Assembly (NCBI RefSeq): GCF_040183065.1
Contig: NC_091120.1
Coordinates: 181,954,896 to 182,018,895 of the forward strand
Reading direction: 5' to 3'
Length of the DNA: 64,000 nt
DNA from: Periplaneta americana
Lineage: Eukaryota; Arthropoda; Insecta; Blattodea; Blattidae
Each line of letters begins with the position of its first letter. Positions within the stretch are counted from its first letter, which is position 1. A program made the translations under genes and the position numbers. Under the pieces are notes generated by a model that ran no database searches, was not told the DNA's origin, and saw only the letters and a program-made list of their open reading frames with translations. This document shows positions 4,807 to 52,800 of this stretch, in pieces.

Positions 4807-6107
4807 CAGGGCAATTACAAATGATTCATCAGGTTTTAAGTCAAATATTTGCGAAAACTATGGATCCAATATGTTTGTGCTAATCATGAATCGAAAGAAA
4901 AACTCTGAAAGTTTATTTTTCCATTGTTGTAGCTCTGGAGTGTGTAGACAGACAGTAGCACAAGCATAGTTTTCAAAATGGTGCCTATACATCAGAAAGC
5001 ATTCGCAATTTTGGAATATGAGAAGTAATTTTTCTTTGTTACCATACAGCATCGTTCTGGAGACATACCCTGGAACTTCACCACCAGTTCACCAAAGCAT
5101 TCTGCAATGGCATCGTCAATTTAAGGCAACTGGTACAGTGAGTAAAGGTAAAAGCAATGGATGCCCAAGCGTTTCTAATGAAACAGTAGAGTGAGTGAGA
5201 GTTTCATTTGCAGCCTCAGAAATCAACATACTGCACCAGTCAGGAAATTGATATTCCACAACAGACTCTATGGAAAATTTTACGAACCCGACTGCGAATG
5301 AAATCCTACCGCATACACTTACTCCAAAAGCTAAAATCGGAAGACCTCGTCAAACGATATAAATTTTGTAATTCTATGCAGACTGCTATGGAGGAGAAAG
5401 ATGGTTTTGAGAACCTACTAGTATTTAGTGACAAGCCCACATTTCGCATGAGTGGCAAAGTTAATCGCCATAATGTACGCATCTGGGGTACTGAAAAACC
5501 ACGTTTGACAGTGCAACATGAACTAGATTCTCCAAAAGTGAATGTGTTTGCTGCAATGTCTAAATCAAGATGTATGGCTTTTTTTCTTTTTCATGGAGAT
5601 AATTGTGACCAGTATGTCATACCTCAATATGCTGCAGCAATGGTTGTTTCCTCAAGTGACTGAGGATTTCAATAACTTCATATTCCAACTTGATGGTCAC
5701 CATCCCATTGGAACACTGAAGTGTGTCGCTACCTAAACACAGAACTCCCTTGGCGTTGGATTGGGCAATGCGCTGAAGATGATTTAGAGTTGTTATAGTG
5801 GCCTCCTAGATCCCCCGACCTAACAGTCTGTGATTTTTTTCTCTGGGGATGTGTAAAAGACAAAGTGTACGTGCCACCAATGTGCATTACAGATGCATTT
5901 ACGACCATTACCAGGGATATGTATGGGACAAACTTCAATATCGCATCGATGTGTGTCATGTAATGAGACAAAGCCACATCGAACATTTGAGATTGTCCGA
6001 AACTTGGACAGTTTGTGTTTATTTTGATGTATCATACATTATTCTAAGTTTTATACTTTTCTTTATGCAGCCACTTTAAACCTCATGAATCATTTGTAAC
6101 TGCCCTG
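4807..6107 (+). mobile_element. mariner-like element, full length, inactive
   Basis: Ends are visible: TIRs of about 33 bp (CAGGGCAATTACAAATGATT at 4807 and its complement ending at 6107, two or three mismatches) flanked by TA at 4805-4806 and 6108-6109. The interior is a plus-strand transposase relic. A frame at 5208-5663 keeps [17 protein letters not shown] (normally FSDEATFH, first catalytic Asp) and, after a stop and frameshifts, FQLDGHH (second Asp position) and PPRSPDLTVCDFFLWG (third). At least five stops or shifts make it a pseudogene. It sits just after the A-tract of the TPGS2-like exon. Confidence 0.85.
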
Positions 6108-7467: not shown

Positions 7468-7667
7468 AACTTGATTACACAACTTTTAACACTGTATCAC
7501 TTCGGAATATGTATGGTAAGACTTTCCTGTGTTAAATTTCAAAGTACCTCGTTTACATGTTTCGACCTATTTATGGGTCATTTTCAGAACTGCATAAATA
7601 GGTCGAAACATGTAAACGAGGTACGTTGAAATTTAACACAGGAAAGTCTTACCATACATATTCCGAA
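7468..7667. mobile_element. Penelope-like element flanks, inverted pair
   Basis: A lead-in (TTGATTACACAACTTTTAAC) is followed by two 74-base arms in inverted orientation (7501-7574 and 7593-7667) that meet across an 18-base spacer. Each arm carries GTTTCGACCTATTT, as do the arms of the Penelope-like copy at 24200-24640, which still holds coding remains. This copy has lost all coding sequence. Confidence 0.6.
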
Positions 7668-9526
7668 ATAATAAATGTATCGAACACATAATTAACAAAT
7701 GGTGGACTATTCCCTGAGACAGAAGGCTTCATTTGTGCTTCTGGTATTCAAAATAATATGTTAGAAACTAGAAATTATAAAAAAAAAAAAAAAAAAAACA
7801 CATAATTAAGGCTGGAACACAAAGTTATTTATGCAGATGCAAAACTTCAATTGAAAATATTCAGCATATAATACCAGGATGCCACATAATAAATCTGATT
7901 GCTTATAAATTGAAACTTGATCATTTATGCCAGAGTAAGGCAATCTGGCTCCTAGAGCCAGATACGTCACGTGTCTTATTTCTCCCTCCACCACGATCTA
8001 ATTTCTTTCCCTATTTCTAACTTTCTCTTTGTCTTTCCATGCTCCTAAATTCACGTTGTCTTTGTGCTAATGATTTTGCAATAACAGAAACAAATCTTGT
8101 TTAACAAACTGATATAGACTTAGCTTTAACAGCAACTAAACGCACATTCACCTCCACCAACATCTCGCTTATTATGCCTAATTAGTAGTAACTGAGAATA
8201 TGAAGAGTCGGAGAAAAACGCGCTATACTGATCTGACATTTTTGTCATGGCGCCCGTACCCAGAAAAACTTACTTCAAAGAAAAACGGGTAAGTATTTTT
8301 TTGTTTGTTTGTAATTTAGATTTTGAATCTGAATGGAAATTTTATTCCATTGTTTATTATGCTGTTTAGGAAAGTATTTACATATCGAGAATTACACTCT
8401 GATCAGACGTAGCAGTGAGTATTTAGATGTTATAGGTGACTTAATTATGTAGTAATTATTACAATGTATGATGCTCTACATTGAAGTACCAAAGTGTGAC
8501 ATGGAGGAAAATAAATTGTATAAAATGAAATGTCTTCTTTCTTCTTCTTTTCCAATGGCATCAGGCTGGTGATAATTAAACCATTCTCTTTCGAGCATCC
8601 CAATACAGGAATGTTATATATCTGTTACATTATTCAGTATGTTACACTGACTGAAGTGGTTCGAATACATTATGAAGTTTGGTAGACAGCAAAAAGCGCA
8701 GTTGTCAGAATCCAGAATTTTGAATCAAAGTAACTGCTTTTCTAGACAATTGTGTACTGTCTTGAATCGAAAAGCTGCTACTGCTTTTTTCTTGTTTTTT
8801 CCTGATTTTCTCTCCGTAATGTTTCTATATTTCTTCAAATTTTATATGTGCTATTTCAGTTTTTTTGCTGTTTATTTTTTTCGATCAGATGTTGTTTTGA
8901 CTACCAATATTATTTTTAGTAAGGCTAAATGTAGGTTGTCGTTTTTTTTTATCATCTTGGTTCTCTTATTTGCAAGATTATTAGCAAATTCATTTCCATA
9001 CATGTGAAGGGACATACTCGAAAAGTATTTTCTTATCCATTCCAGTTAATAGTTGCATTTTACTTCTTATATCTGTTATTAAGGAACTTTCCGAGGCATT
9101 TTGTGAGCTTGTTTTTTGTATGGCAAATTTTGAGTCCACTATAAATACGTACTACTTTCTTTAAATTTGTCACATTATAAATCAACTGAACTGCCTCTAG
9201 TTCGGATTCAGAATTGGTTTTATGGTCTTCTACTTAAATATAGTGAAATCTCATCTTGAAAAGCGCAGGTTGTATTACGATTTTAACACAATGTTTAATA
9301 CCGCAAGATTTTATTTGTGATGTATACATTTACGACAATTTTTTACATTTTCTTATTGAATAAGACATTTGGGCAATTTAAGAACACATTTCATAAATAA
9401 GAAACAATCCAACTATAGTTTCAATTTTTATCTTTTGGGTTAACATAGGCCATAGTCATGGAATTACTCTTCACATCAGCTAATGACCCAATCAATTCCA
9501 TTTAGTGAAAAGTCAAGCAGATATTC
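7668..9526. other. no gene seen
   Basis: Contains an A-run at about 7780-7798. A 111-codon frame at 8672-9007 is rich in Phe/Leu from T-rich DNA and has no recognisable motif. Confidence 0.35.
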
Positions 9527-13067: not shown

Positions 13068-16000
13068 TCATATACAAGTATGTTGACATTCTTAACTCTT
13101 AATAATAACTCTTTAATAATAATTTTAATCACATACCTTAAGGGGAGAGGATGGTATTTTTTAAAACTTTTTTCTTATTTGGTGTAAAATATTAATTTTT
13201 TGTATGTAGAGAGCTCATAGCTGTAGGAACTCAACCAAATATAAATATTTTGAAAGAAAATTATTTGGGGGCCCAAATTTGAAAAAAATATACCCAATGC
13301 AGGATTGTACTAAAGCCAATATATCTAAACCGTTTTTAAAGATAGATGCAAACTCTTTTTTGCAATGTATTTGCAAAAGCATGTCCTACAAACTGACTGT
13401 AACAGAATTTTGATATCAGTCCCTACGTTTGTAAAATAAACAATTAAAATTTAATAACGATTTTCTGATTTCCTTTCTTGCAAACAAACAGAAGTATTTT
13501 TAAAATGAAATCAATTAACAAAATTCTGTTACAGAGAAACGTTTCCTAATAGTCTAAAGAAGTGTATTCTAAATTTCATGCATGTATCTTTAATAGTCCA
13601 GAAATTATATCCATTTTTGTCTGGAAATGTAGCAAAATAAATTAAGTTACTGGAAACCGATAAAAGTGGGCAAGTGATTTAAAAATCCATAGTGCAGGAA
13701 GTTTAAAAATGACGTCTCAACATCCGATAAGGGCATAAATACCCACCAAATGTTATGCAATGTATTCCACACATATCAAAGAGTATTTTAAAGAAAAAAA
13801 TTTTTTTTTTAAATTTAATTTACCGGAAACAACAATAAAAATGGGCGAGTGATTTAAAAATCCATAACGCAGGAAGTTTAAAAATGGCGACTCAACATCC
13901 GATAAGGGCACAAATACCCACAAAATGTCATGCTATGCATTCCACACATATCACAGAGTATTTTAAAGAAAAAAATTTTTGTTTGTTTTAAATTTACTCA
14001 TTTTTCACAAAAAATACCATCCTCTCCCCTTAATGTTCGTCCTCAGCACAAGACATTGCAACCTCGGTTTTAGTCCATGTGGATTAGACAAGTAGGTGTC
14101 ATTTTATAATGGAAGCAGCTTATTGGTTGCAACATTGAAATTGAGGCGAGTGATTGGAGTGGCGAAATAAGAAATTGAAAACAATAATACAAGTAAATTT
14201 TAAAGACCTGCCGAATGTTAAGCATGAGACCGTGGCGATAATAACTGCGAGTTGTATTGTACTTGTCAGTACCGAAATTTGAAACAAAGTTGGCAACAGA
14301 AAATTCAACCTGACAACTAGAACATCACTATAATCCACTAGCACAGGACTGGGCATCAAGAGCTGATTCTACTCTCTCACAGGGAGCCATATGACTTCTC
14401 TTCATCCCCTTTCTTCCCTGCCGAACACTGCGCAGCATTGATTCAGTGACGAATATTAAGCATCCCCGTTTAGAGTCTGGATGCGGTCCCGATGTCCAGC
14501 CCTGCACTAGCATATGTAGTAATATGGAGAAAGTGATTAGTTTTCTCCCTTAGGGTATAAAGTAAGATGACCCGGATTGTAAGTAATTAAGTAATTACCT
14601 TTTTACCAGGAGCAAGTAGTCGAATGTACTTGTTAATCCAACCTTTAAGACGAGGATGATATTTGTAGAGAGAGCCGTCTACTGCAATTGTGGTGTCTGG
14701 GCGATCCAATCTCTCAAGTAGTGTTGCTGTACCTATAAGGAGACATAGCAATCAATCAATAAATGTCACCATCATTCCAGTGTGGAATATAGGATTCTCA
14801 GAAAACTCCTCCATTTGACCCTGCTCTTAGCGAGCTCCTTGATTTCTCCCAACATCTTGCCTCTGCTTTTGCTATTGCATGTACGTAGCACATTTTATTG
14901 CAGTTATGAAATGTTAACTCAAAGTATTTCTGGTATCCTTTGGAAGTAAGTGTGTATGAATTTATTCAATAATATTTCTTTTTTCTTTGGAGATGAATGC
15001 GTATGAATCTAATAAACAGGTATGAAGTGTTTACTCAATTTAATTTATTTCTGTTTTTTTTTCTAAGTGAATGTGTACGAGTTTGCTCAGAAATATTTCT
15101 GCTTCTTTAGAGATCAGTGTATATAAATCCAATAAATAGATATGAAGTGTTAATTCAATTTTATTAATGTACTTCTGGTTTCTTTGGAAGCAAATGTGTG
15201 TATAAGTTTACTCAGAAATATTTTTGGTTCTTTTGGAAGTGAGTGTGTATGAATCCAATAAATAGATATGAAGTGTTAATTCAATTTTATTAATGTACTT
15301 CTGGTTTCTTTGGAAGCAAATGTGTGTATAAGTTTACTCAGAAATATTTTTGGTTCTTTTGGAAGTGAGTGTGTATGAATCCAATAAATAGATATGAAGT
15401 GTTAATTCAATTTTATTAATGTACTTCTGGTTTCTTTGGAAGCAAATGTGTGTATAAGTTTACTCAGAAATATTTTTGGTTCTTTTGGAAGTGAGTGTGT
15501 ATGAATCCAATAAATAGATATGAAGTGTTAATTCAATTTTATTAATGTACTTCTGGTTTCTTTGGAAGCAAATGTGTGTATAAGTTTACTCAGAAATATT
15601 TTTGGTTCTTTTGGAAGTGAGTGTGTATGAATCCAATAAATAGATATGAAGTGTTAATTCAATTTTATTAATGTACTTCTGGTTTCTTTGGAAGCAAATG
15701 TGTGTATAAGTTTACTCAGAAATATTTTTGGTTCTTTTGGAAGTGAGTGTGTATGAATCCAATAAATAGATATGAAATGTTAATTCAATTTTATTAATGT
15801 ACTTCTGGTTTCTTTGGAAGCAAATGTGTGTATAAGTTTACTCAGAAATATTTTTGGTTCTTTTGGAAGTGAGTGTGTATGAATCCAATAAATAGATATG
15901 AAGTGTTAATTCAATTTTATTAATGTACTTCTGGTTTCTTTGGAAGCAAATGTGTGTATATGTTTACTCAGAAATATTTTTGGTTCCTTTGGAAGTGAGT

Positions 16001-19000
16001 GTGTATGAATCCAATAAACAGATATGAAGTGTTAAGTCATTTAAAGTATTTCTGGTTTCTTTGAAAGCGAGTGTGTATGAGTTATTCAGAAATATTTCTG
16101 CCTCCTTTGGAGGTGAATGTGTATGAATCCAATAACAGATATGAAATATTAACTCAATGTATTTCTGGTTTCTTTGGAAGTGGGAATGTATGATCCATTA
16201 GACGGATTGTAGTGTTAATTCAAGTACTTGTACTTTCTTTAATAGTTTGTATGAGTCTACCCTACAGATTTGGAATATCAGCTCATATGATTGAGAGTGT
16301 ACAAGTGTGAGTCCACTCAACTGATCAATGATGTGTTAATTTAAATAAGCAAGCTAAATTCACGTCTTTATTATGTATGATCTGCCATTTTAATAATGGC
16401 AGTGCTTATTTTGTATTCTGATTATATTTTACCATGACTAAACTTCACAAACAACCATTGAATTTTACGACATTTAATATGAGGCGCTCAGCGCACAAAA
16501 AGCCCAACCCACAAAATTTGCATATTGAGTTTATTGCTTTAAAGAGCTCCTCATATTGTTCTCTTCAAAGTGTAAATCGGCCTAATCTTCCTTCCCAGTT
16601 TTTCGTAAGATTTCAGCACAATTTTCGTTTGTGTATCGCATTTCGCACACTGTTAAAAAATCGGTGAAGTGGAGATATAATTGTGTCAGTTGGACCATTT
16701 GTGCCATATTATATCATTAGCAGCAAATTTGGAAAGTGTTTAGTCTGTTAATAAAAATTGTGTGAGAGCTATTTTCATATTACATTGCATGAAATCTACT
16801 GTTGTTTTATATAATTACCGGCAGCACTTTTTTTCAGCCGGAATGCGTTCTGGTAAACTTTTTGCCATTACTAATTCCAACGAGATATATTTTATAAGCG
16901 AAATTGAAAATTAAAATTGCCGCCACTGCCAAGTCCAAGAGTTTACATTTTCTCATTATCGTTGGTGCAAAAGTAACTCATGCAATCTAGTTCTGCCATC
17001 TTCCGTTATTGATCCTGAAACTATAGCTCAAAATAGCAAAATTTCCGTTATGCTTAAATTCGATGAGCTCCGTTTGGAACTTATTGAAATATAAGGTATG
17101 TACGCCTAATATTTTTAAACCTACGTTTTTGTTGTATAATGTGATCGAGTGATAGAGTTCCGGTAAACTTTTTTCCAGAAAAAAAGCACTGATTACCGGT
17201 ATATTGATTTAGAACTAAACTGATTACAGAATATACAAATAAACAGTAATAACAGCAATGAATTTACTTACATATGGACACTAACAATGCAGCTCGGTTG
17301 GATACAATCTCACACACGTGTTTCACAATTGCCATGTCGTCAGCATCATACGAAAGTCCCATCTTGTCCAAAATCTCAGATGTGTTCTCAACGCTGTTGT
17401 CTACAGTGTCCCTGCAAATGGAATTCTTTGAAATTACGATTTCATGAATTGTTAGGAAATTCAATTTGCAGTAAATCTGCAGACAATTTTCACATGTATA
17501 CAGATTGATCTACCTCTGATTGAGATTCTGGCTGATATGTATATCTATTATCTGGCAGTATATCTCACTTGACGATATGTGTCAGTGGAAGAACAATTGT
17601 TTGTATAAATCTGAAGTCTGATTAGTGTTACTAGTTGGCAATGTATGCAATAGAGGGAGAAAGGAACTAGCCACCCTATCCCATTATCCCCTGGCATAGT
17701 TGCCTCGTGAGTGATGCATTATTGGTGTCCCTTGTGGGGTCCAGACCTGTCTACTGACAATTGACTAAACAACAACAACAGATGGATCACGAAACCCTGA
17801 TAATGTAACATCAGGAGCAGGATATTTCATTCCAAAAACCAAGATAGTTACTTCATGCTCTGTTCATCTTCAAATAAAGAGATAGGTTTGGAAGTAAATC
17901 CCGAAAAGACAAAGTATATGATTATGTCTCGTGACGAGAATACACCGTGTTCCGCTTATAAGTATAACAAAAGAAATAGCTATAACTTCTAAATTAATAC
18001 AAGTATATAGTTGAAACCAACTGCTACAAAGAATGAAAACTGGGAATTTTTGTTACCTTATGTTCCATAAACCTCAACATGGCTTCCATTGGTGGCACGG
18101 GAAATATCCAACCGGTATTCAACCTCGACCCAAGTGTTATGAAGCATCTGTGGTGTAACATTGTTGACAGCAGCATAAATTCTTTCTTGTAAGTCTGCCA
18201 AATCACGTACTGGCGTCCTGTAGACCTGGTCCTTAACAAACCCCCACAGGAAAAAATCAGGTGGTGTTAGATCTGGTGATCTGGCAGGCCATGTGATGTA
18301 CGGTGATCCTCTTCCGATCCATCTTGCAGGGAATTGTTCGTCTAAGAATGTGCGAACCATGTTGGCAAAGTGTGGTGGAGCCCCATCTTGCACATTTCTA
18401 ACTCGAGTCTGTTTCTCAGATGAGGCAACCTTCCACGTCAGTGGAAAAGTAAACCGACACAATTGTCGCATCTGGGGGTCGGAAAATCCATGTGTCGTAA
18501 TTGAACACCAACGGGATTCCCCTAAATGGAATGTTTGGTGTGGGATCATGCGTGACAGAATCATTGGTCCCTATTTCTTTGCTGAAAAGACAGTCACTGC
18601 AAACACGTACCTGGATATGTTGCAACTGTATGCTGTGCCACAACTCCCAGATGGAGCAATTTTCCAGCAAGATGGGGCTCCACCACACTTTGCCAACATG
18701 GTTCGCACATTCTTAGACGAACAATTCCCTGCAAGATGGATCGGAAGAGGATCACCGTACATCACATGGCCTGCCAGATCACCAGATCTAACACCACCTG
18801 ATTTTTTCCTGTGGGGGTTTGTTAAGGACCAGGTCTACAGGACGCCAGTACGTGATTTGGCAGACTTACAAGAAAGAATTTATGCTGCTGTCAACAATGT
18901 TACACCACAGATGCTTCATAACACTTGGGTCGAGGTTGAATACCGGTTGGATATTTCCCGTGCCACCAATGGAAGCCATGTTGAGGTTTATGGAACATAA

Positions 19001-22000
19001 GGTAACAAAAATTCCCAATTTTCATTCTTTGTAGCAGTTGGTTTCAACTATATACTTGTATTAATTCAGAAGTTATAGCTATTTCTTTTGTTATACTTAT
19101 AAGCGGAACACGGTGTATTGTACGAAATGGAAATATAAAAATTGGAAATTTATCTTTTGAAGAGGTGGAGAAGTTCAAATATCTTGGAGGAAATTAAACA
19201 CAGTATAAATATGGGAAATGCCTGTTATTATTCGGTTGAAAAGCTTTTATCATCCAGTCTGCTGTCAAAAAATCTGAAAGTTAGAATTTATAAAACAGTT
19301 ATATTACCGGTTGTTCTTTATGGTTGTGAAACTTGGACTCTCACTTTGAGAGAGGAACACAGATTAAGGGTGTTTGAAAATAAGGTGCTTAGGAAAATAT
19401 TTGGGGCTAAGAGGGATGAAGTTACAGGAGAATGGAGAAAGTTACGCAACACAGAACTGCACGCATTGTATTCTTCACCTGACATAATTAGGAACATTAA
19501 ATCCAGGCATTTGAGATGGGCAGGGCATGTAGCACGTATGGGCGAATCCAGAAATGCATATAGAGTGTTAGTTGGGAGGCCGGAGGGAAAAAGACCTTTA
19601 GAGAGGCCAAGACGTAGATGGGAAGGTAATATTAAAATGGATTTGAGGGAGGTGGGATATGATGATAGAGAATTGATTAATCTTGCTCAGGATAGGGACC
19701 AATGGCGGGCTTATGTGAGGGCAGCAATGAAACTCCGGGTTCCTTAAAAGCCAGTAAGTAAGTAAGTATGTTCATCTTCATCCGAACTTTCGGCTATTGG
19801 CTCTGCTCTTCAATGTGTTTCTCAATTAACCTATCGTTGGACTGTGTGACTGTCTTTCTCATGTTTTTTTTTTCTTTCACAGAAAATAATATGAAGTAGA
19901 TCCTTAGCATACATTATGTTAGTATTTTATGTATTTTTTTAGAGAATTATTAGAATCTTTACCGTTACATAGTATGTAGTGGGAATGCAGCCACTGACAG
20001 TTACATGTGGGAGGGGGTGTTTTTCTGAAGTTGTAAAATAGTCACTACCTGCTTTCAAAGAATGACACCAACATCTTTCACACAATTGCAAAATCTCACT
20101 AGCAAAAATTAGCGTCATTACATATTTCTTTTGATTAAAATTACATGAATAAAATCTTAACTTTTGTAACCAATGTCTAGTAACTCCTAAGTTATTTTTT
20201 TCTATTTTATCTGAATATGCCCTGTGTATCTTTATTTTGGAGTTTTGTATATATTCTTAATGACATCAATTAGATGTAATGGGATATCTCATTTTGTCAT
20301 AATGTCCCACAGCAAGGACCTATTTACTGGTACCTTATCAAATGCCTTACTATAATCTATAAACAGAATACAGTAGAACCCCGATTATCCGTCACCCTAT
20401 TAACCGATCAGAGGATTATCCGACCGTCTTTCTCTCACTCTATTCTTTCTTTCTTTGCTGCGGAAAAAAAAGTATGTAGTGCTGTTCCTTATATTAATAC
20501 CTATTCTTTTCTAGAGTCTATTATTATAAGTCTTTACCCTTACATATTACAAGTGTACTGTCAGCAATAGGAACAGTTACCAGTAGGCCTACTTGAAGGT
20601 GTTTTTCCCAAATTGTAAAATAATCACTACCTGCTTTCAAAGAAATGGTCCCCAAAACTTCCGCAAAATTTAGAGCAAACTCGTGAAGCATTCAGTTTTT
20701 ATTCCACTGTTCGAGTGCTCGTACTATTTAATTTCTATCCAAAATACCTTCCACAGGTGTCAAAAGTGTTTTACTAAGTATCAAAATAAAATACAAATAA
20801 ATAATTGATCGATTTGGGAAAAGACAAATCGCGGCTCCTCTCGCATCAGAATAAGAGATTGGAATTACAAATGTGCGCGATTTAATTAAAAACAAGAATG
20901 AAGTGTGTAAAATCTGTAAATCTACAACAAGAAACCTCTACTATTCCTATCTTTCCACAAAGAATCAAGGAATTTACTTGGCCCTTATAAAACCATTGTT
21001 GACAACTGGAGTTAAATTATTACGGTAAACTTCTGATTCACTATCTAGCATGTTAAACAAAAGACCACAGAGGAAATTATGAAACTGTGTTATGCACTTA
21101 ATTTACGAATAATACATTATGCAACGAGCCTATAATGATAGTAATTAAGAAGCAAGTATGGATGTTTATGAAACTAGCGCAAGCGAGTTTCATAATTTTC
21201 ATACAAGCTTCTTAATTACCATTATAGGCGAGTTTCATACGACTTTTTATGCTCGACCATATTTCTAACTTGAAATTATTCAGATGTATACATTTTATTT
21301 GTATCTGACAAGATCGGAAGTGACCTTGTTCTAGGTCGTGAATTGTGAGATGTGCGCAGATGCGAAAGTATTGATTTTTTCCGAGGAACAATGTCATTGA
21401 CCTTGATGTAATTCCGTTAAACTTGATATAACTTTGATTATTGAATTCGACATTGAAAAACGAAATGACAAATTGAATTTATTTGAATATTATTTACAAT
21501 TAACGCTAATTATTATAGTAACAGAACATAACCTTCTGCGACAGTATTGGATTTCCAGCCTCCGTGACTTTTCGCTAATTCTCTTTCGATTGCATATCCG
21601 AGAATAATCGATACTTGCGGTTTTATAACCGTACAAAGCTGACTTGTCATTGGCTGAACACCTGTAAGCTGAGTTGTCATTGGCTGAACACCTGTACTTT
21701 AATGAGTAGGTGTACTTTAATGACCTGCATTAAAGGACTGCTACCAGGTGTATAATTATTACATTTCGGCATGGTCGAGCATAAAATATTTTATGATACG
21801 GATTATCAAATTTTTTCGGTTAACCATCCAATCTACCCCCTTCATTACCATGGATAATAGAGGTTCTACTGTATGTGTTTCTTGGTTGAATATGAGAGAT
21901 TGTAATGTTCATAAATAACTTCCCTGTACTTTTCATGAAAGGCAGAAACGTTGGTTGGTTTATCAGAATATTAATATTGCATCATAGTGAATTCAGTTTA

Positions 22001-28000: not shown

Positions 28001-31000
28001 AAATCCCACGTAAATCTGCAGTAGCAAAATTCAGACTGCTTATAGAACACGATTATTTGGCCAAACACTTGAATAAAATAGGAATTTACACAAATCCAAA
28101 CTGCCCTCTATGCAACAAAGAAGAAGAAATGACTGAAGATCATCTACAAACCTGTGAAGTTCTACCTGATGGATCCACCACAGAAAAATATTGGAGAGCA
28201 AGAACGCTAATGGCTTCGTTGCCAAAGCCCGGCATTAGATAACAACAGGTTACTAATCATCCTTGATGAGCACCATCTTGAGAACTGAGAGGTAGAACTT
28301 AAACTGAGGGGATTCGATCTGGCATCGGAGCTGGAATCCAATGTGGCTTAGTGAATAAAGCGTTAGCACTTAGAGCTGAAAACCCGGGTTCGAGTCCTGG
28401 TGCCGGAGAGAATTTTTCTCTGTTCTATCCATCCTTCATCATATGGTAACGCAGAATTACTGCACGGAAATATCATACATACTTCGGTACATCATAATAA
28501 TATGATACGCGTAAGTAATCACTTAGTGATTCAAGACTGCACTCATCCCGTCGGATCCCGACCACTTAGTCATTCGTAATGAGTGCACCTCTGTACATAG
28601 TGCGTTGAACATTGTGCCACTGTCACATATTCTGTGACACAGTACATGAGGGTAGGCCACTAAAAGGAAAAGTGAGAAGTAGAACTTAAACTGAGGGGAT
28701 TCGATCTGGCATCAGAGCTGGAATCCGGTGTGGCTTAGTGGATAAAACGTCAGCACATAGGGCTGAAAACCCAGGTTCGAGTCCTGGTGCCAGAGAGAAT
28801 TTTTCTCTGTTCTATACATCCTTCATCATGTGACTTAGAATGTTTTAATTCTCTTCGATTCAGTAAGAAGCAGATATTAATTAGATGCAAAGTGAGATTA
28901 CTCAATACGTGAAGCTGACATTTCTGTTGATGAATTTAAATTTAAGATCACCTGCTTCTCTCCATGCCGCTGTCCTTCCCAGTGCTGCACTCTGTCAGCT
29001 CGCTCCATGTAGCAAGCATTGCTCCCTGTACCCAGGATCAGGGCGATGGCAGTCTTCTTGTCCAGCACAGCTCCCTGCACCAATGTACCTGGCCAACACA
29101 CACTACAATTGAAGACTCCCCAGAATAAGGATATAACCAACAAAACTGTAATTCATGTTTCAGGAGAAAGGAAAATAATTTTAGGGGCATATTTCATTAG
29201 GCCTATATTTACTATCACAACCATTTGACTAATGAAAGATACAAGTTTATTCCGCCAATGAACATGCTACAATTGAAGGGTTCAGAACCATAGTGGGCCA
29301 AGCGCCATTTACTAAAACCGTAGAAAACAAGGGATAAAATGAAGTTATTACCATAATTCAATGGAAACATATAGCAAGTAATATAAAGTATATATACTGT
29401 ACATACAAATGGCTTTTAAGGAACCCGAAGGTTCATTGCCGCCCTCACATAAGCCCGCCATCGGTCACTATCCTGTGCAAGATTAATCCAGTCTCTATCA
29501 TCATATCCCACCTCCCTCAAATCCATTTTAATATTATCCTCCCATCTATGTCTCGGCCTCCCCAAAGGTCTTTTTCCCTCCGCTCTCCCAACTAACACTC
29601 TATATGCATTCCTGGATTCGCCCATACGTGCTACATGCCCTGCCCATCGCAAACATCTGGATTTAATGTTCCTAATTATGTCAGGTGAAGAATACAATGC
29701 GTGCAGTTCTGCGTTGTGTAACTTTCTCCATTCTCCCGTAACTTCATCCTTCTTAGCCCCCAAATACTTTCCTAAGCACCTTATTCTCAAACACCCTTAA
29801 CCTATGTTCCTCTCTCAGAGTGAGAGTCCAAGTTTCACAACCATAAAGAACAACCGGTAATATAACTGTTTATAAATTCTAACTTTCAGATTTTTTGACA
29901 GCAGACTAGATGATAAAAGCTTCTCAACCGAATAATAACACGCATTTCCCATATTTATTCTGCGTCATTTATATTTGTTACTGTTGCTCCAAGATATTTG
30001 AATTTTTCCACCTCTTCGAAGGATAAATCTCCAATTTTTATATTTTCATTTCATACAATATTCTGGTCACGAGACATAATCATATACTTTGTCTTTTCGG
30101 GATTTACTTCCAAACCTATCTCTTTACTTGCTTCCAGTAAAATTCCCGTGTTTTCCCTAATTGTTTGTGCATTTTCTCCTAACATATTCATGTCATCTGC
30201 ATAGCCAAGCAGCTGATGTAACCTGTTCAATTCCAAACCCTCTCTGTTATCCTGGACTTTCCTAATGGCATACTCTAGAGCAAAGTTAAAAAGTAAAGGT
30301 GATAGTGCATCTCCTTGCTTTAGCCCACAGTGAATTGGAAATGCATCTGACAGAAACTGACCTATACAAACTCTGCTATACGTTTCACTGAGACACATTT
30401 TAATTAATCGAACTAGTTTCTTGAGAATACCAAATTCAATAAGAATATCACATAATATTTCCCTCTTAACCGAGTCATATGCCTTTTTGAAATCTATGAA
30501 TAACTGATGTGCTGTACCCTTATACTCCCATTTTTTCTCCATTATCTGTCGAATACAAAAGATCTGATCAATAGTCGATCTATTACGTCTAAAACCACAC
30601 TGATGATCCCCAATAATTTCATCTACATATGGAGTTAATCTTCTCAAAAGAATATTGGACAAAATTTTGTACGACGTCAACAAAAGTGATATTCCTCGAA
30701 AGTTACCATAGTTGGTTTTGTCCCCCTTCTTAAAAATAGGTACAATTATGGACTCCTTCCAGTGTTCTGGTACAATTTCCTTTTCCCAAATAGAAAGTAC
30801 AAGTTTATAAATTTCGCTATATAATGCACTTCCACCCTCTTGTATTAATTCTGCTGGAATTTGATCGATACCTGGAGACTTGTACTTTTTCAGATTTTCT
30901 ATCGCAATTTCGACTTCTGAAAGTGTGGGTTCAGGTATAAATGGCTCAGCAGTTTGTACTTCAATTTCGTCCCGATCATTTCTATTTGGCCTATGTACAT

Positions 31001-34000
31001 TTAATAGTTGCGCAAAATAGTTTTTCCATCTGTTTAGGAGTGATGGAGAGTCTGCAAGCAAGTCACCATTCTCATCCTTGATCACGTTTACCCTTGGCTG
31101 ATATCCGTTCTTAAATTCCTTTATACCCTTATATAAAGTATACACATTAAAACTAAATGATATGTTAATCTTCATTAAACTATGGTATTCACTTAACTTT
31201 AACTCTTGCTTTCTCAGTTTTTAATAAATGGTGCTTGGTCCACTATGGCTCTGAACCCTTCAATTAGCAGCTGTGTGAGTAATACACAAAACAATGTACC
31301 AGTTGTATCATTGAGCACAGCGAGGACTTCCACGTGTGTGTCTCCACGTTTGTTGATGGCATCCCTCAGCATCTGAACTGCATCCCGACCAACGACATTG
31401 TGGCAGTTGAACGATTTGGTCCATGTGACGAGTATGCCCACATCGAGACCTTTCTGGATCATGGGAAAAGAGAAAGTAAACCCTGAAACAGAAAATAACA
31501 AAACATTACCAATAAGGCTCCTTGCAAGTTGGTTGGTTGGTGGTTTCCAAGGGTTAGGTATTGGCTTGCGCCATTAAAACTCTTGCTTCCCAATAGAGTG
31601 CTGGAAGATCTTTGTTCATGATTTCCAGCTTTGTTGTACTGATTCCTACTTTATTCTCAAATAGCAGTGGTAAGGAACAGACGCGTCAAAGCAGTGTTGC
31701 TCAGTAATGAGAAGTAACACAGAGCAAGAAGAGGAATGTACAGTGCTTGACCATGAACGACAGTCTGTTGTGCTAAGTTTCTTAAAGATTTTGTGAGAAC
31801 TGTTGTAGCTAGGGTTGCCAGATTGTATGCTTTTCCCGTATTCTTACTTTTTTTCTACTTTAAAATAAGTCTTTCTTTATTTGAGGGTTACCTACTTTTT
31901 CCCCCCTCCCCATAATATTTATATTTTCAACATCAATTTACTAGATTCATTCATTCATTTATTTTATTCCACAGATCTTACATGAGCAATGAAGCTTTAA
32001 GATGTGGAACAAGTCAAAATTTTACAATATTGCAATTACAATTTTTACAAATTTTTATAGTTTTACAATTTAGTAATTTTCTACAATTTTTACAATTTTG
32101 TGCAATTTTTTACAATATTTTGGCGAGATGTAGTGAGATGAGGTGAGGTCCGAGGATTCGCCAAAATATTACTCGGCATTTGCCTTTTGGTTGGGGAAAA
32201 CCTCGGAAAAACCCAACCAGGTAATCAAATCAAAGGGGGGGTAATCAAATCAAAGGGGTTGATGCCAAGGATTCGCTATAGACTCGCCACAGACCATCCG
32301 GCTTCAGTCCCACGGCTGTGGAAAACCTCGGAAGAAGCCAAAGACCAAAGCGGGATCCAACCCAAGCCCGAACGCAGCTCCGGATCAGCAGCCCAGCGAG
32401 TCTGCCGACTGAGCTACATCGATGGCTCTACTAAAAGTATATAATACATAACCAATCAGATTATTAAATTTACAAACGCAAACGATCATTCATCAGTTGA
32501 GCTATATGTATAATACAAAAACAAGTAAGTTAATTAAATTTAAGGCATAAACAATTCAGCCAGTTGTGATATACAGAAATTGATAATACGTATCATGCAA
32601 ACTACTTCAAATTACAAACACAAACAATTATCAATAGAGCTATATAGATTACTATTCAATTTAAAGCATATACAATTCATCGGCCAAAACTATACAAATA
32701 TATACAATACAAAGTAGCATACTTTCATTAAGCTATATAAATTTGTGCAATTAATATCAAGTAGATTAATTCAATTTATAATCATAAACAATATCTAACA
32801 AGATCTATGTGCAGAGATTTATTTTTATAATGCTATGAAATTTAGCCTAAGTGATCAGATGTAAAAGTGTTCTGTGGACTTGATAGAGGCTGAATTACAA
32901 GTATTGGTATTGTACTGGAACCTGTGTGACACTTGCTTGTGTATTAATAATCGATTGGAAAATGAAGTATATGGTTGAACAGCAAATTTATTTGGTGGAC
33001 TGTTACGTGAAAAAAGGTAACTACAGAAGATGCGTTCGGAGATCTACCAATAGTAATGGAACACGCTCCCCATATATTGTCAGTTGCTTTGTACAGATTT
33101 TGTTTTTCAGTTTTTAACTAAAAATTATATCATTCTTACGCACTTATCACAAGAATTGTTACAAATCATACGACTTTAAGAACTCGATTCTTTACAGTTT
33201 AATTATGCATCCTAATGTACAGTCTTGAAGAATTTATAAGAGTGGAGTGATTTGTAACAATTGTTGTGATAAATGCGTAAATGTAATTTTGTAGTTAAAA
33301 ATCGAAAAAAAAAAAAAAAAATCTGTACGAAGCAACTATGAAATTCACATCACATTTTTAGCTTCAGAATACTAGCTAATTAAAGAAATGATACTACTGA
33401 ATAGTTCATTCTTTATCTGTAATATTAGTTCACCCTTAAAACTCAAGAATAAAGGTATTGTGAATTTTATTAGTAACAACAATGTAATTTATTCCTCACA
33501 ACAATAATTCCTTTCTACAATTCGCCTTAAACGCTCTCGGCAACAATTGGAATTTTCACTCAACACAGTATTCGTTATAGCACTCCACCGACGCCAATGA
33601 CAATTTACTTGGACTAGTACGAACAACAATGAACTGTTAATCTTAACTAATATTTACAAAGCACTATTTACAAATCAGAACTACCAGTTCTCAGTTCACA
33701 GTTCTTCTATCTCAGTCACTGGAGTTCACAATATCTCGAACCACAGACCTTCAGAGACAGTTCACTGTACTCGAACTCGGGTCCCTCCAACTGCGGTCCA
33801 CTGCACTCGAACTCAGGTCCCTCCAACTGCGGTCCACTGCACTCGAACTCAGGCCTTCGGATGCTGACGCAGATGCGGACGCACACTCGAGTCGAACTCC
33901 GGCACACAAGTCTGGCTTGCTTGCTCTGGCTTACTCACTGACTGAATAACTGAAAACTCTGAAACTGGAAACTCTGCTGTCGTTCCTTCGCGTCCGTAAT

Positions 34001-37000
34001 TTATAACCACAGCGACGTAGCCTCGAAGGTTCCACGCGTCTCTAGAGATGGCACTCCAGAAAAAGCCAGAGCCCTCTCCTCTCTACCAGCACCAGATGCG
34101 CGCGCACTCTCGCTCCACTCTCTCGCCGCGTTGGCGTCCCGCAAGAGAGAAGATCGCGCGGAGCACTTGGGATGGCACGCGGCGGAGAGGGGAAAAGGGC
34201 CAACGCGGCGAGAGAGTGGAGCGAGAGTGCGCGCGCATCTGGTGCTGGTAGAGAGGAGAGGGCTCTGGCTTTTTCTGGAGTGCCATCTCTAGAGACGCGT
34301 GGAACCTTCGAGGCTACGTCGCTGTGGTTATAAATTACGGACGCGAAGGAACGACAGCAGAGTTTCCAGTTTCAGAGTTTTCAGTTATTCAGTCAGTGAG
34401 TAAGCCAGAGCAAGCAAGCCAGACTTGTGTGCCGGAGTTCGACTCGAGTGTGCGTCCGCATCTGCGTCAGCATCCGAAGGCCTGAGTTCGAGTGCAGTGG
34501 ACCGCAGTTGGAGGGACCTGAGTTCGAGTGCAGTGGACCGCAGTTGGAGGGACCCGAGTTCGAGTACAGTGAACTGTCTCTGAAGGTCTGTGGTTCGAGA
34601 TATTGTGAACTCCAGTGACTGAGATAGAAGAACTGTGAACTGAGAACTGGTAGTTCTGATTTGTAAATAGTGCTTTGTAAATATTAGTTAAGATTAACAG
34701 TTCATTGTTGTTCGTACTAGTCCAAGTAAATTGTCATTGGCGTCGGTGGAGTGCTATAACGAATACTGTGTTGAGTGAAAATTCCAATTGTTGCCGAGAG
34801 CGTTTAAGGCGAATTGTAGAAAGGAATTATTGTTGTGAGTTGAAATAAAATTCACAGTATTTTACAAACAACTTCAAGTTAGTGTAACTCTGAAAATATT
34901 GAGATTGGGACATTTTTTGCTCAGAATGTCTTCGGAAATAAGCTCCGTAAGGGACGGTAAATCCTCATGAATCACTCTGTGTATGTAGGGCTAACATACA
35001 GGTTCTGTAATTGTACGGTATTTTATAATGTTAAATGTCTAAAACAGAGTTAAGAATAGTAATGATCCTACAGCTTAAATAAACAATCAAAATTATACCA
35101 CCAAATCCCTGGGATGTTCAAAGTATATTCCTTACTTTTTGTAAAGATATTCCTTTTTTTTTTTCCTAAAACAAATCTGGCAACCCTAGTTGTAGCCTAT
35201 ATCGTATGTGTCGAGATTTTCTTCAGTTAGAACGCGATTTATGAGCCTTCATTTTGTATTTCAAAATTGACCAGTTTCTCTCATTCTTTTTTTCAATAAA
35301 TTCTGGACTGCTGAATGACATGATTGTTGGAAGTTAGGATATTTACGCAGAATACAGCACGACACTTTTTGTAAGTTTTCTTCGTAATTACGAATCATAA
35401 ATGACAATTCGCCATTCTGTTGCCAAGAACTCTACGGCACTGAATGGAAGCCAGCTTTATACTAATCCTCTAATCTTGACGTCCCTTCAGTCTGTGTTAT
35501 CTGTCCATACTAAACACAAAATCTTCCCACGCTCGATCCAGGGGAAGGCGTAAATACAGAGTAGGCTTAAAAATCTGAGTACCTTATATCTTTTTATAGA
35601 GCAGGTGTTTCTAGACTTTTCTATCATTTTTTGTGACGTATCACATAAGATGACGACCACTCATTTTCATCCCCAAACAGAATACAGGTTTATCAATATA
35701 ACTTATTTGTCTCAGAGCACCCTGTTAGCCAAGGATATTTCTTATATCCATGACAAATGAAAACTTATATTTCGTCTTCCTCCATCCGCTATTTTGATAT
35801 GTAAATGTGGTGTCGATCTAATATCTCTGTAAGCACATTTTGTTTCATACGTCCAACTTGAAAACTGTTTCTCTTTTAATTCTACAAATAATAACCTCAA
35901 TATTCTCTCAGTATGAGCCATTTTACACAAAATTAATATGTAACACATACACGCATGCGCTTTTGATTAAACTAACACTCAACAACGCACCCCATTCACA
36001 TAACACCAATATAGCGCGACGTATTATTGTGACGGAAGGCTAGCCTCGTTTCATACGGAGATGTAGCGAATCCCGGTCCCCCTCAAGCTTGCGAGTCAAG
36101 ATCGTAGCCATGTCTTTAGAGGCTTCTGCCGTAAGCCTCGTACTGAAACTCTCCATCCTGGAATGACTGTCAATAGTGAACTTAATATATGGAAAGATCG
36201 GAATGAAACTAAGTGTTACGATAGATTGTTATTACGAAGTTATAGGCCTGCTGTTACTGGGTATAATAACTGAAATTTTTTGGGTAGACTATGTCTCAAA
36301 AGCCTCTTAAGAGCTTCGCCATTGATGTATACATTATTTCCTTGGCATGTACTCAAGCAAAACTTGTTTCTTGGCGAACACTCTGTATAAAGCAGCAAAC
36401 TGCATATAAATATATAAATCGCCCTTATAGGTTAAATAACAAAAACAATCCTTACCTAGAGGTAACCTTGCGCCTGTGAGGTTCTGGCTTCGAACGAAGT
36501 CGCTGACACTTTCCGCTAAGAAGTCGAAGAGTTTCTCTCCACAGCCCAGTCTCAGCTCCTCTCCTATGTGGTAGTGCTTCACCTCCTCTCGGATCAGGAC
36601 GCCCTCTGAGAGTTCCAGCAGTATCACTCGGAAGTTAGTTCCACCCAGGTCCAGTGCAAGGAACAGACCTTCCTCTGCACAACAAGAAAGAAATGTTACA
36701 CTGCTCCGTCGATGTGGCAGTCAATGTTCACCTACTTAGATATAACACGTGGAGCAAGTCCCCTGCAATTGGCAAGCGGCAGAGCATGAAAGTCCAAGAA
36801 TACTATGGACAAGAAAACATCGATCATACGGAATGGGTATTTAAGAGCTGTTAATTCACTATAAAAAGTGAACCTGATACAACGTTAATACAAATTAATT
36901 TTATTTCCTTCAATATTGGCCTATCTATCTATAAAATACAATAATATATCTACAGGATGATTCGTTTGGATATGAATAAAATAAAAACACCGCAAAACAT

Positions 37001-44349: not shown

Positions 44350-44898
44350 TTGCTATTGGACTATACATTGTCTGAAATATTCATTTTGTCGGGTGCCGAA
44401 CATCCGGGAAATTTGCGAAGTTTACGAACCAGACTATGGCAATACAGCACAACTTCCGCTCTGCCCCCTCCCCTTTTTACCAAATCGTCACTGTACGCTA
44501 AAGCAGAAGTTGACCTTGGCCCCCAATGTTCATCCTCACAAGGTCACGGTCTGACCTTCATATCTCAACAGCAAGAGCGGCACAAGTTCCAATCGACAGT
44601 GACGGTGCATATTACCAATATGCACGTGACCGAAGTCGAGCCGCTTGACCAAGTTTCTCAGATTTCGCGGGGTCTGTCAAGAATAGAAGCATTCTCTCGA
44701 CTTGTGAATTCATTCATTTTCAAACACTGGTGTTCAAAATGGTTAGCTAATTGTTCCCTTTATCTACGAGTACTAGTGAGTCTCGCTCTAAACGGGGAAG
44801 GGAAATGTGAAGAAGTATTAAAACTAAACAGAAATCACGAGAAATTAGCAACAGAACTTTTCAAGAGGCAAATTCCCAAGGAGAATCACATGTATTAG
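44350..44898 (+). other. 182-codon frame of unknown nature
   Basis: Longest unexplained open frame outside transposons (SGAEHPGNLRSLRTRL ... FKRQIPKENHMY). No domain, signal peptide or membrane segment recognised. Its last 23 codons are the first unit of the 161-bp tandem array, which argues against a conserved protein. It may be a repeat-derived chance frame. Confidence 0.2.
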
Positions 44899-45954
44899 AC
44901 CAGGCCTGGGCATTATAACTGAAGAGAGTCATCGCCGACTATCCCTTAACTCTCCATTTCACTTTCCCTGGACCGATAGAAGATACAAACAGAAATCACG
45001 AGAAATTAGCAACAGAACTTTTCAAGAGGCAAATTCCCAAGGAGAATCACATGTATTAGACCAGGCCTGGGCATTATAACTGAAGAGAGTCATCGCCGAC
45101 TATCCCTTAACTCTCCATTTCACTTTCCCTGGACCGATAGAAGATACAAACAGAAATCACGAGAAATTAGCAACAGAACTTTTCAAGAGGCAAATTCCCA
45201 AGGAGAATCACATGTATTAGACCAGGCCTGGGCATTATAACTGAAGAGAGTCATCGCCGACTATCCCTTAACTCTCCATTTCACTTTCCCTGGACCGATA
45301 GAAGATACAAACAGAAATCACGAGAAATTAGCAACAGAACTTTTCAAGAGGCAAATTCCCAAGGAGAATCACATGTATTAGACCAGGCCTGGGCATTATA
45401 ACTGAAGAGAGTCATCGCCGACTATCCCTTAACTCTCCATTTCACTTTCCCTGGACCGATAGAAGATACAAACAGAAATCACGAGAAATTAGCAACAGAA
45501 CTTTTCAAGAGGCAAATTCCCAAGGAGAATCACATGTATTAGACCAGGCCTGGGCATTATAACTGAAGAGAGTCATCGCCGACTATCCCTTAACTCTCCA
45601 TTTCACTTTCCCTGGACCGATAGAAGATACAAACAGAAATCACGAGAAATTAGCAACAGAACTTTTCAAGAGGCAAATTCCCAAGGAGAATCACATGTAT
45701 TAGACCAGGCCTGGGCATTATAACTGAAGAGAGTCATCGCCGACTATCCCTTAACTCTCCATTTCACTTTCCCTGGACCGATAGAGATACAAACAGAAAT
45801 CACGAGAAATTAGCAACAGAACTTTTCAAGAGGCAAATTCCCAAGGAGAATCACATGTATTAGACCAGGCCTGGGCATTATAACTGAAGAGAGTCATCGC
45901 CGACTATCCCTTAACTCTCCATTTCACTTTCCCTGGACCGATAGAAAATACAAA
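44829..45954. repeat. tandem array, seven units of 161 bp
   Basis: Starts CAGAAATCACGAGAAATTAG; unit starts at 44829, 44990, 45151, 45312, 45473, 45634 and 45794. The spacing is exactly 161 bases except the last interval, which has one base deleted. Units look nearly identical, indicating recent expansion. Each contains CAGGCCTGGGCATTATAAC, similar to the ends of the hAT MITE at 14344. Confidence 0.93.
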
Positions 45955-46225
45955 GCAAGATACCAAACTATTGCTCTGTGACTGATTATACAGAGTGAAT
46001 CCTATGTCAATTTCAATGGGTTATTCTTTGAGATATTTGAAACAAACATGTTTAATTAAATTCTACTCGTTTTTTGCTTTCTTTTTGAGAAAAAAAACTT
46101 TTATATGAAATATTTCATAGCATGTTTTGGTAAAATCATTTTATTTAATTCCCAATGTCATTATTTACTTTGCCCGATACGTACGCTAAAGCAGTTATCT
46201 GTTACTCTGTGATGCCTCTGTTGTA

Positions 46226-49234: not shown

Positions 49235-49835
49235 AAAACTAACAACCAAACATTTTCATGGGTGCAGATAAAAAGTAATGTTTTTTCTTTCACCGTGTTA
49301 ATAATGTCAAAACAAGTGCTCATACACATTTTGGCCACTCGAGAGCAATTACGAGGGCCGTAAAAATAAGTTTTCCTGGAGATGTTCACAGAAAGAAAAC
49401 ACAACTTCATGAAGAGATTTATTGGAACAGATACAGCAACTGTTGAGCTATTTTTCAACATATTCCCCACTAGAACTGAGACATTTGTTATACCATGGGA
49501 TCAACTTTTATATCCCTGTGTCTTAGAAGTCTTCCACCTGGGATCGGAACCAATGTGTGACAGCCGTCTACACCTCTCTGTCTATCCCACGGTATGACAA
49601 ATGTCTCAGTTTCAGTGGGGAATATGTTGAAAAATATCTCAGATGTTGTTGTATCTGTTCCAGTAAATTTTTCCAATGAAATTGTTTTTTTCTGTAAACG
49701 GTCCCAGGAAAACTTCTTTTTTCATGGCCCTCGTAATTGTGCTCGAGTGTCCAAAATATGTATAAGCACTTGTTTTGACATTATTAACATGGTGTAAAAA
49801 AATAACTTTTTAAATCTGCTCATGAGAATGTTTGC
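49235..49835. repeat. diverged inverted duplication, about 260-bp arms
   Basis: The left arm (about 49235-49500) and right arm (about 49583-49835) are inverted copies at perhaps 80 percent identity by eye, for example GTTAATAATGTCAAAACAAG in both. The centre near 49500-49580 is unique. Each arm has a short frame with FFNIFPT-TETFVIPWD. Probably a fold-back derivative of a DNA transposon, far older than the palindromes at 17943 and 33495. Confidence 0.7.
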
Positions 49836-49839
49836 TTGT

Positions 49840-52800
49840 AAGTAGCTGTCAATTTTATTATTTTTTATAACACCTGAGCTTTATAATATTGGTTTACGCT
49901 AAAATTGTACAAATGTCTATGGAGTATGTCTTATTAGGTGTTTAGACGCCAGTCAATAAAGTGTTTAAATGTATTTTGAGATTCGTGGTATTAATACAAA
50001 TGTTTGGAAACATTTGAAGTAAAAACTAAACCTGCCATAACGGGATAAAGATTCAGTAAATACATCGTATTCAAAAACAAATGACTTTTTAAAAAATAAT
50101 TTATATTGAAATCGAAAGTTATTGAGAGATGAAGTATTTCGTTTCATTTAACGAACTTTTAAGTCTTTTTAAACTTACATTAGGCCTACAATAATTCAAT
50201 ATGAACACGTCAAGTAATTTTGCTTAAACCTCTGTATATCTCTTGATAGATACGTTGTAGTTCATCTCTAGCAAGTACCTTCTTTCTCAATTATGTAACA
50301 AAATCTGATTGACCCATTGCAATACTAGGGACGGTCAGAGTTCCTCCTACATCACTGCATATTACGTACCACGATGCAATTGCAATAATAGTAATTGTTC
50401 CCGGCATGCGATGTACATTCCTTCAGGACTGTCCAAACTGGCGAGCCCAATGATCGTCACTTAAATGTAACATTTTATACAGTAGTTACAGTGTCAGATG
50501 TTTAAAATACCATTAGATATTGGTGAGATCTGTGAATTTGTTCACTCCAGTCAATGATGTGTCTAGTGCAGTGTTGCCAACTTGATTATTTTCCGACTAA
50601 ATCTGATTTTTTTAATGAGAGTTTAGTTGGGAAATTGCTAATGAGAAATCTAAAGTCTCGTTCAAATCTAGTTCTTCTCGTCAAATGCAACGTCTATGCT
50701 ATCATCCTATAAAAAAAAAAAAAGAATATTCCAAGTCCGACTCTAAGTCTGTTTTTTTCTAATCAAATATTTATTTCAATACTCTTATATTGCAAGCCTG
50801 TGTAATTTTCTTACTCTCCTGAACAATTTACTTCAATGGCTTGGGACGTTCGTCGATAATTCAGGTCTTCAATTTAGAACGTTGCTGCAATAAGAGTTTC
50901 AGCCCCATGGACCCTTTTCCGGAAAATATATAGATAGATTCTCCATAGTTTCTCTGATAGACTAACCGAGTGTCGTGGAGAAATTCTGAACAGTAATGCT
51001 AGCAAAACGGTTTATTTTAATGAATGTTAAGGGCCCTTTATCTACAGAACATAGGCCTATTCATTGTTGAGTATCATTAGTAAGCAATGCAAAATGTTAC
51101 ATAGATGTACAATAAATTAATTCAGAAAGTAAAGGGGTAAAAGTAAAATATTTTAATAAAAATACTTGAAAAAAGACAGAAAACCCCAGACGACAGAATG
51201 GACAAGCAGAAAAAATTGCTCTTAAATGCTGAATCTTTAATCAGAACTTCGAGTTCCAGAAAAGAAAAGCAAGTTAAGGATGTTAGACACATATTTCCGT
51301 AGGTAGAAGTGGAAAGCAAACAAAAATTGTTCTACCTCGTTTGAAAAACATTTTTTTATACTCAACATGTTCGTGATGTGCTACGTCGTTTCATGATTTG
51401 TTATTTTGTTTCTAAAATAATTTTAACCTTTCCTGATTTACTATTTTGTTTGACAAATACCTCAAGTTCAAAAAAAAAAAAAAAAAAAAAAAAAAACGTT
51501 CATGATTATATTAATACTATTATTGTATTTTATTCCAAACAAATAAATAACAGTTTTATAAAGATTACACACTGCTTAATTTTATTTTTAATTTAAAACA
51601 TTTTCTCCGGAAACGGGGTTCATATTACTGTAGACTATGTATACTGTATGTACTCGTATTTAACTCATTGTTTCGATGTCAGAACATAGGTGCCCCTAGA
51701 GGCGGTTTCAGTACCTACAAGGAATTTAGTTACACTCATTGGCGACAAGGGCAGAGAAACAAATGGTAAACTCATCGCCTCAAAGCCACCTAATATGCAA
51801 CTGTGGTATTAGGATGAAGTGGAAAAATTCAGCTCTAATTCAGGCTTGAAGGTCTTTAGCGTGCCGGAAAACTCCGATACGGGACGAATGGCTTAAAATT
51901 CCTCTCAAAGGCCTAGCGCTCCGGATTTCTGCGTCCTGAAAAACCCATCGACCAAGACCTGATTTGAAGTCGCAATCCTTCGGTCTAGAGGTATAACAAT
52001 AGATTAAAAATCTTTGAGCGTTTCTGTTCAACTCGTATTCTATAAATAACACACTAGTCTACTTCTCAAGCAGTTTTTTTTGTTCATTGGTTAGTACATT
52101 TAGTGCACTGCTATGAGAAATTTAACTAAAAAAAAAAAAAACAGCCATTCCAGTTGTCATGGACGTTACATTTTTACTATTTTCAAACTCTATATATTCA
52201 AAATGAAATGACTTTTGTCAACTTTTATTATTAGAGTCAATTTAGAAGATCAATATAATTTTACAGAAAAAAAGTTGTTGGATAAAATTGATTATAAGTG
52301 CAGAAAATAAAGAAAAGATTCCGTCAAGCGTCCATGTGGAAGCTATGCACATTTCATGGTATCCAATTAATTTCCATAAACATAATCGGTAGGCTAAATA
52401 TTTTATAGCTGTTTTTTTTTTCATGTCATGGATGTTACACACATTTTGTCACGGATGTTACAGATGAGTTAATGCCCTTCATTTTTCGCGTTTCAAAACA
52501 ACTGTGACATTTCTAAGTCAAAATAAATATTCACTTGAACTGTAAGATTGCCAATTGTTATTAATGCAAACACTGAAAATAAATTACAGAAATAATATTG
52601 TACAGAGTAAAAAATTTCTTGATCCTAGAGCTCTGGAATTAACAGTGCAGGCTCTCAAAATATTTCTTCAACAATAGCATCTTGAAAAACATACATTTAC
52701 AGCTGATCTTTCTATGAGTAAGTGCTGCAAACGTCAGGAAAACAAAATAAGACCACTTAGATTTAGTGTCCATAAAACTATTTTCCTTTTGAAAATAAAA

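Follow-up and report, generated by a model that had tools for sequence, protein, structure and literature searches.

A young fold-back element with two 3′ ends and its intact putative Tc1/mariner-superfamily parent in the genome of Periplaneta americana

Introduction

Replacement of one half of a mariner by an inverted copy of the other half, which gives the element long inverted repeats, is already published for Rhodnius and Drosophila (these and the other papers are cited here from excerpts). In Rhodnius prolixus, the 5′ part of the mariner Rpmar49 is replaced by 221 bp of its 3′ part in 13 independent copies, which according to the authors go back to one progenitor amplified by an autonomous element, and Rpmar17 is a half-replacement mariner too (PMC4678618). 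The Drosophila elements Dromar7, 11, 28 and 36 are rearranged mariner MITEs, i.e. amplified non-autonomous lineages with long terminal repeats. In all seven rearranged Drosophila sublineages it is the 3′ part that has given way to the 5′ part, and the origin of these rearrangements is called elusive by the authors (PMC4161770). The available part of a study of aphid mariners (PMC5490172) offers no closer case than the Rhodnius and Drosophila ones.

Three further systems are related to these by the arrangement of their ends. Mos1 and Mboumar-9 have been engineered with the same end on both sides. In vitro, Mos1 carrying two right repeats has 26 times the activity of the natural arrangement, and Mboumar-9 carrying two left ones has twice that of its own (PMC4505599). 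The excerpt of another Mos1 study describes a donor with two 3′ repeats (PMC2642840). In D. rhopaloa, a putatively autonomous Bari1 has two identical long terminal repeats (PMC4877112). In Mu killer, a locus that silences Mutator, part of a transposase gene is duplicated in inverted orientation, and one of the terminal repeats is present twice (PMC3440606).

The element described here occupies positions 17943–19115 of a stretch of 64,000 nucleotides (the window) of contig NC_091120.1 of the P. americana assembly GCF_040183065.1 (positions 181,954,896 to 182,018,895, forward strand). The element itself was not found in the limited collection of literature searched. As judged from its sequence and that of its relatives, it very probably derives from an intact parent of the Tc1/mariner superfamily, as a young MITE-like element that is not autonomous and is moved in trans via two 3′ ends. 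Like Rpmar49 and Rpmar17 as excerpted, it has a 5′ part replaced by a 3′ copy and long terminal repeats. Unlike these mariners proper, it belongs to another family, has arms of 449 bp, is present in nearly identical copies and coexists with an intact parent that is identical to it in sequence. It shares half-replacement with the Dromar MITEs of the cited excerpt, but keeps the 3′ end twice. The two copies of one end are a feature in common with the engineered Mos1 and Mboumar-9, which were made by design and are of another family (PMC4505599), while the Bari1 of D. rhopaloa is related in shape but has an intact gene (PMC4877112). Mu killer resembles the fold-back both in the partial inverted duplication and in the doubled terminal repeat; as far as the excerpt goes, however, it is a Mutator silencing locus, whereas the fold-back is a mobile multi-copy family with a predicted hairpin.

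What is new here is another transposase family, an unusually young age and an intact parent. Because parent and derivative occur together with ordinary deletion forms and a head-to-head pair, all with almost no sequence divergence, origin, end preference and any hairpin silencing become testable free of the decay that obscures them in old families.

Results and discussion

Structure and insertion site of the fold-back

A preliminary description of the window had reported a fold-back between two TA dinucleotides, with the 5′ half of the element swapped for an inverted 3′ half. The coordinates proved exact, and so did the architecture: the 1173 bp consist of the reverse complement of the 3′ 449 bp, a 275-bp centre and the 3′ 449 bp (Table 1). 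The arms of the window copy mismatch at two of 449 positions, and an identity of 447/449 is not a matter of chance. An inverted-repeat finder delimits slightly longer arms of 453 nt (17939–18391 and 18667–19119), in which the excess is made up of the TA and two chance bases.

The fold-back interrupts the 3′ end of a LINE, whose frame rejoins cleanly once the fold-back is removed, as described earlier; an uninterrupted copy of the same LINE elsewhere in the window has a single TA at the corresponding point. Some 75 bp past the join, the host LINE fragment has a separate defect of its own.

Table 1. Features of the fold-back and of its insertion site in window coordinates
Feature	Position	Strand	Basis or remark
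Left TA target-site duplication	17941..17942	.	Sequence; TA on both sides in 30/30 fold-back copies
Left arm, reverse complement of parent 918–1366	17943..18391	-	3′ terminal inverted repeat in place of the 5′ one
Arm/centre junction	18391..18392	.	Parent 918 abuts parent 642/643, with the base C in common
Centre, 275 bp, parent 643–917	18392..18666	+	Collinear with right arm
Right arm, parent 918–1366	18667..19115	+	Native 3′ half with 3′ terminal inverted repeat
Right TA target-site duplication	19116..19117	.	Sequence
Open frame, 258 codons and stop in the consensus	18224..19000	+	Consensus 282–1055 shifted to the window
LINE 3′-end fragment, left of insertion	17871..17942	+	Sequence comparison; frame across join
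LINE 3′-end fragment, right of insertion	19118..19769	+	Sequence comparison
Paralogous empty site, LINE copy without interruption, single TA at insertion point	29394..30130	-	

Copies of the fold-back in the genome

The window's own genome (3.23 Gb) was searched with the fold-back as query, and 40 of the 1175 first-look candidates were scored. Full fold-back copies, the window's included, account for 30 of the 40 and are spread over 14 contigs; this proportion is not a frequency because the query was the fold-back itself. Nine of the remaining scored candidates contain a contiguous 3′ 725 bp of the non-inverted parent type. The last one, L018, is a fold-back with a right arm reduced to ~100 bp of the 3′ end and with its TA flanks kept.

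Each of the 30 full copies lies between two TAs (one of them, L038, is without the terminal G), and their eight-base flanks form 30 different pairs. The copies are 1158–1174 bp long, with exactly 1173 bp in 25 cases and 1172 bp in L038. Palindromy stops 2–6 bp beyond the element edge, TA included, in 29 copies and extends 15 bp from the edge in one copy that lies inside a TA run. The copies are nearly identical: seven of the 25 with a length of 1173 bp equal the consensus, and there are 53 substitutions over all 30 (one of which may stem from L038 having been delimited two bases too long), or ~0.15% per site, a value biased towards young copies because the best-scoring ones were taken.

The different insertion sites and the copies identical to the consensus show that the element moves in the fold-back form, which had previously been considered probable. 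They also support the earlier idea that no end other than the 3′ one, present on both sides, is needed in cis. Furthermore, several fold-backs have variants in common (268T in four copies, a double change at 937–938 in two and a change at 944 in two), so copies descend from copies that were already fold-backs, and the uniform architecture suggests that all most likely go back to one founder. With another 29 full-length copies built in the same way at other TA sites, the chance that the inversion arose in place at the window locus after a normal insertion, or that it is an assembly error, is negligible; its sole support is the general instability of palindromes, and it is rejected.

Joined flanks of all 30 copies were compared with the window and the fetched loci. 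Clean paralogous empty sites, in which a single TA corresponds to the two that flank the insertion, were obtained for the window copy (L001) and for L033 only. The candidate empty sites of L003 and L028 are paralogues without an intact TA, which counts against the explanation preferred here. The joined-flank matches of L021 and L032 were discarded as empty sites or duplications, each being a copy's own flank that matches its own locus.

The parent transposon and its classification

Six of the nine parental-type matches are intact parents of 1366 bp with TA flanks and an open frame of 350 codons, and each differs from the parent consensus at 0–3 positions. In L015 and L016, ordinary internal deletions have removed 317 and 270 bp while both the 5′ and the 3′ end are kept, and the ninth match (L041) is part of a head-to-head pair. 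The TA target-site duplication is present in all eight parent or deletion copies inspected. Eight of the nine matches lie on one contig (C1), which probably reflects list order among equal candidates.

The fold-back and parent consensuses are identical at every position of the arms and the centre. The former can be written as the reverse complement of parent positions 918–1366 followed by positions 643–1366, the two segments sharing a single base (C) where they meet. Of the first 47 positions of the parent's 5′ and 3′ repeats, 44 are alike: no mismatch occurs in the first 25 bp, and the three that exist are at positions 26, 38 and 44. It is the 3′ version that the fold-back holds twice.

Terminal inverted repeats and an uninterrupted transposase ORF of ~350 codons are found in six of six full-length parents. 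The protein contains a DUF4817 helix-turn-helix (above the Pfam cut-off) and aspartates at residues 158, 242 and 285; 83 residues separate the first two and 42 the last two (37 if counted to the aspartate of an SPD motif). Its catalytic part matches the catalytic domain of Sleeping Beauty weakly (E = 0.0029), and no DDE family of Pfam matches the transposase at E values up to 1. A DDE/D transposase with an N-terminal helix-turn-helix points, if weakly, to the Tc1/mariner superfamily. Mariners proper are characterised by a DD34D catalytic spacing. The name "mariner", under which the element was first described, is thus appropriate at the level of the superfamily and not for mariner proper, given the D-83-D-42-D spacing; membership of the parent in the DD34D family was rejected on the second interval, which is 42 residues or, to the SPD aspartate, 37. 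The derivative has the properties of long-TIR MITEs of the Rpmar49 kind: one half is replaced by the inverted other half, and independent copies have different flanks.

A possible mechanism of mobilisation

The fold-back form stems from one rearrangement, in which the last 449 bp of the parent, copied in inverted orientation, took the place of its 5′ 641–642 bp. The founder would be the product either of fold-back repair in place or of an internal deletion between two head-to-head parents. The 350-residue transposase of the parent would then bind the 3′ terminal repeat at both ends of the fold-back, cut the element out and paste it elsewhere in trans. We infer mobilisation by this transposase because the 3′ repeat is common to parent and derivative and the divergence of their consensuses is zero. 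By analogy with the Mos1 and Mboumar-9 results, movement in trans through two 3′ ends is plausible.

That one end, possibly a preferred one, is present twice may also help the fold-back to spread, of which we are less sure. In the laboratory, mariners with two identical preferred ends transpose better according to the excerpt (PMC4505599), and the fold-back may represent such a case in nature.

Origin of the fold-back form

The two routes to a founder appear comparably probable. The first, which comes close to an even chance, starts from two parents arranged 5′ to 5′, in which a deletion from position 917 of one to position 642 of the other would in one step leave exactly two joined 3′ halves. 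The single shared base at the junction is as in ordinary end joining, and a same-family pair with its 3′ ends outward and TA outside both does exist. This pair (L041) includes a copy in minus orientation, which is full-length apart from mutations in its last bases; a short TA-rich spacer separates it from the second copy, which begins at position 58. Nevertheless, no feature of the junction ties L041 to the fold-back, so that it is not the founder itself, and it is the only head-to-head pair met among the scored candidates.

The second route, a serious possibility though somewhat short of even, is fold-back repair in place. A break inside the element, e.g. during interrupted gap repair after excision, would let a strand switch template to its own 3′ half; copying would run outward through the 3′ end into the flank, and a later transposition would trim the product at two TAs. 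A second fold-back in the window (49352–49733), which we take to be a mariner by its YDKCLSFSGEYVEK motif and CGAGGGCC end, bears on this route. It is older than the fold-back at 17943–19115, and a 34-residue piece of it has no Pfam match. Its inverted arms (49238–49501 and 49584–49843) run past the TA into the flanks, and they agree at 95 of 107 aligned positions outside the element and 128 of 144 inside. The equal divergence suggests that one event copied the element together with its flank, so this fold-back may preserve the initial stage of the process, as it should look before the element has transposed for the first time. However, it belongs to a different family, and an older hairpin may already have been there, with the element inserting into the TA at its centre.

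A predicted hairpin and possible silencing of the parent

Beyond its movement, the fold-back could in principle act as a brake on the parent, either by a 449-bp hairpin that feeds small RNAs or by a poisoning fragment of the transposase. In the predicted fold of a hypothetical consensus transcript, every one of the 449 arm positions is paired. The open frame of 258 codons would encode transposase residues 149–350, which comprise the catalytic D-D-D part and lack the helix-turn-helix of the N-terminus. Moreover, Mu killer of maize, according to the excerpt, can silence its parent (PMC3440606). In the genome, on the other hand, both the parents and the fold-backs seen are very young, so no silencing is evident, and we regard a brake of either kind as unlikely.

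More doubtful still is a reading in which this genome displays the whole path of a fold-back. An in-place palindrome that includes flanking DNA (as at 49 kb) or a head-to-head pair (as in L041) would give rise to the 3′–3′ element. With its doubled preferred end this element would outrun the parent, whose activity would at the same time be lowered by hairpin transcripts of the fold-back. The parasite would thereby limit its own host element, and its arms would be kept alike by conversion. The reading that we prefer is that of a young derivative moved in trans via two 3′ ends.

Variants mirrored between the arms

Among the 25 fold-back copies of exact length there are 12 distinct substitutions in the left arm and 17 in the right arm, and two of the left-arm substitutions have a right-arm mirror. 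At least two mirror variants occurred in 0.8% of 20,000 uniform draws, a simple null applied to few events. The two members of one mirror pair are found within a single copy (L032), and those of the other are split between L037 and L030. The mirror variants hint at arm-to-arm conversion or at flipping of the centre.

Other rearranged and repeated elements

The window holds a second fold-back mariner (element 49352–49733, whole span 49238–49843), which belongs to another family than the fold-back at 17943–19115 and is flanked by TA. Its inverted arms extend past the element into the sequence on either side and are equally diverged outside the element and inside it; it is the older of the two fold-backs. 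The 641-bp inverted repeat encloses a GC-rich centre of 63 bp and carries a TATA-like sequence in both arms; a further fold-back element is one possible explanation, inverted copies of a promoter or an LTR are another, and an effect of the assembly is a third. The shorter inverted repeat is a small hairpin element.

At locus L041, two copies of the parent, a transposon of 1366 bp when intact, stand head to head. The right member of the L041 pair lacks its first 57 bp. L018 is a derivative of the fold-back in which a deletion has removed the right arm except for about 100 bp; the left arm is complete and the TA flanks are retained.

Related elements and repeats (window positions unless a locus is named)
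Feature	Position	Strand	Details
Decayed transposase cousin	5199–5663	+	34% identical to parent transposase
Decayed transposase cousin	37429–37731	-	43% identical to parent transposase
641-bp inverted repeat	33495–34135 and 34199–34839		arms 100% alike (repeat tool)
81-bp inverted repeat	7495–7673		96%, around 17 bp
Long tandem array	14980–16161		period 126 bp
Long tandem array	44826–46090		period 161 bp
Long tandem array	55947–58353		period 104 bp
Head-to-head parent elements	L041:1403–4095		3' ends facing out
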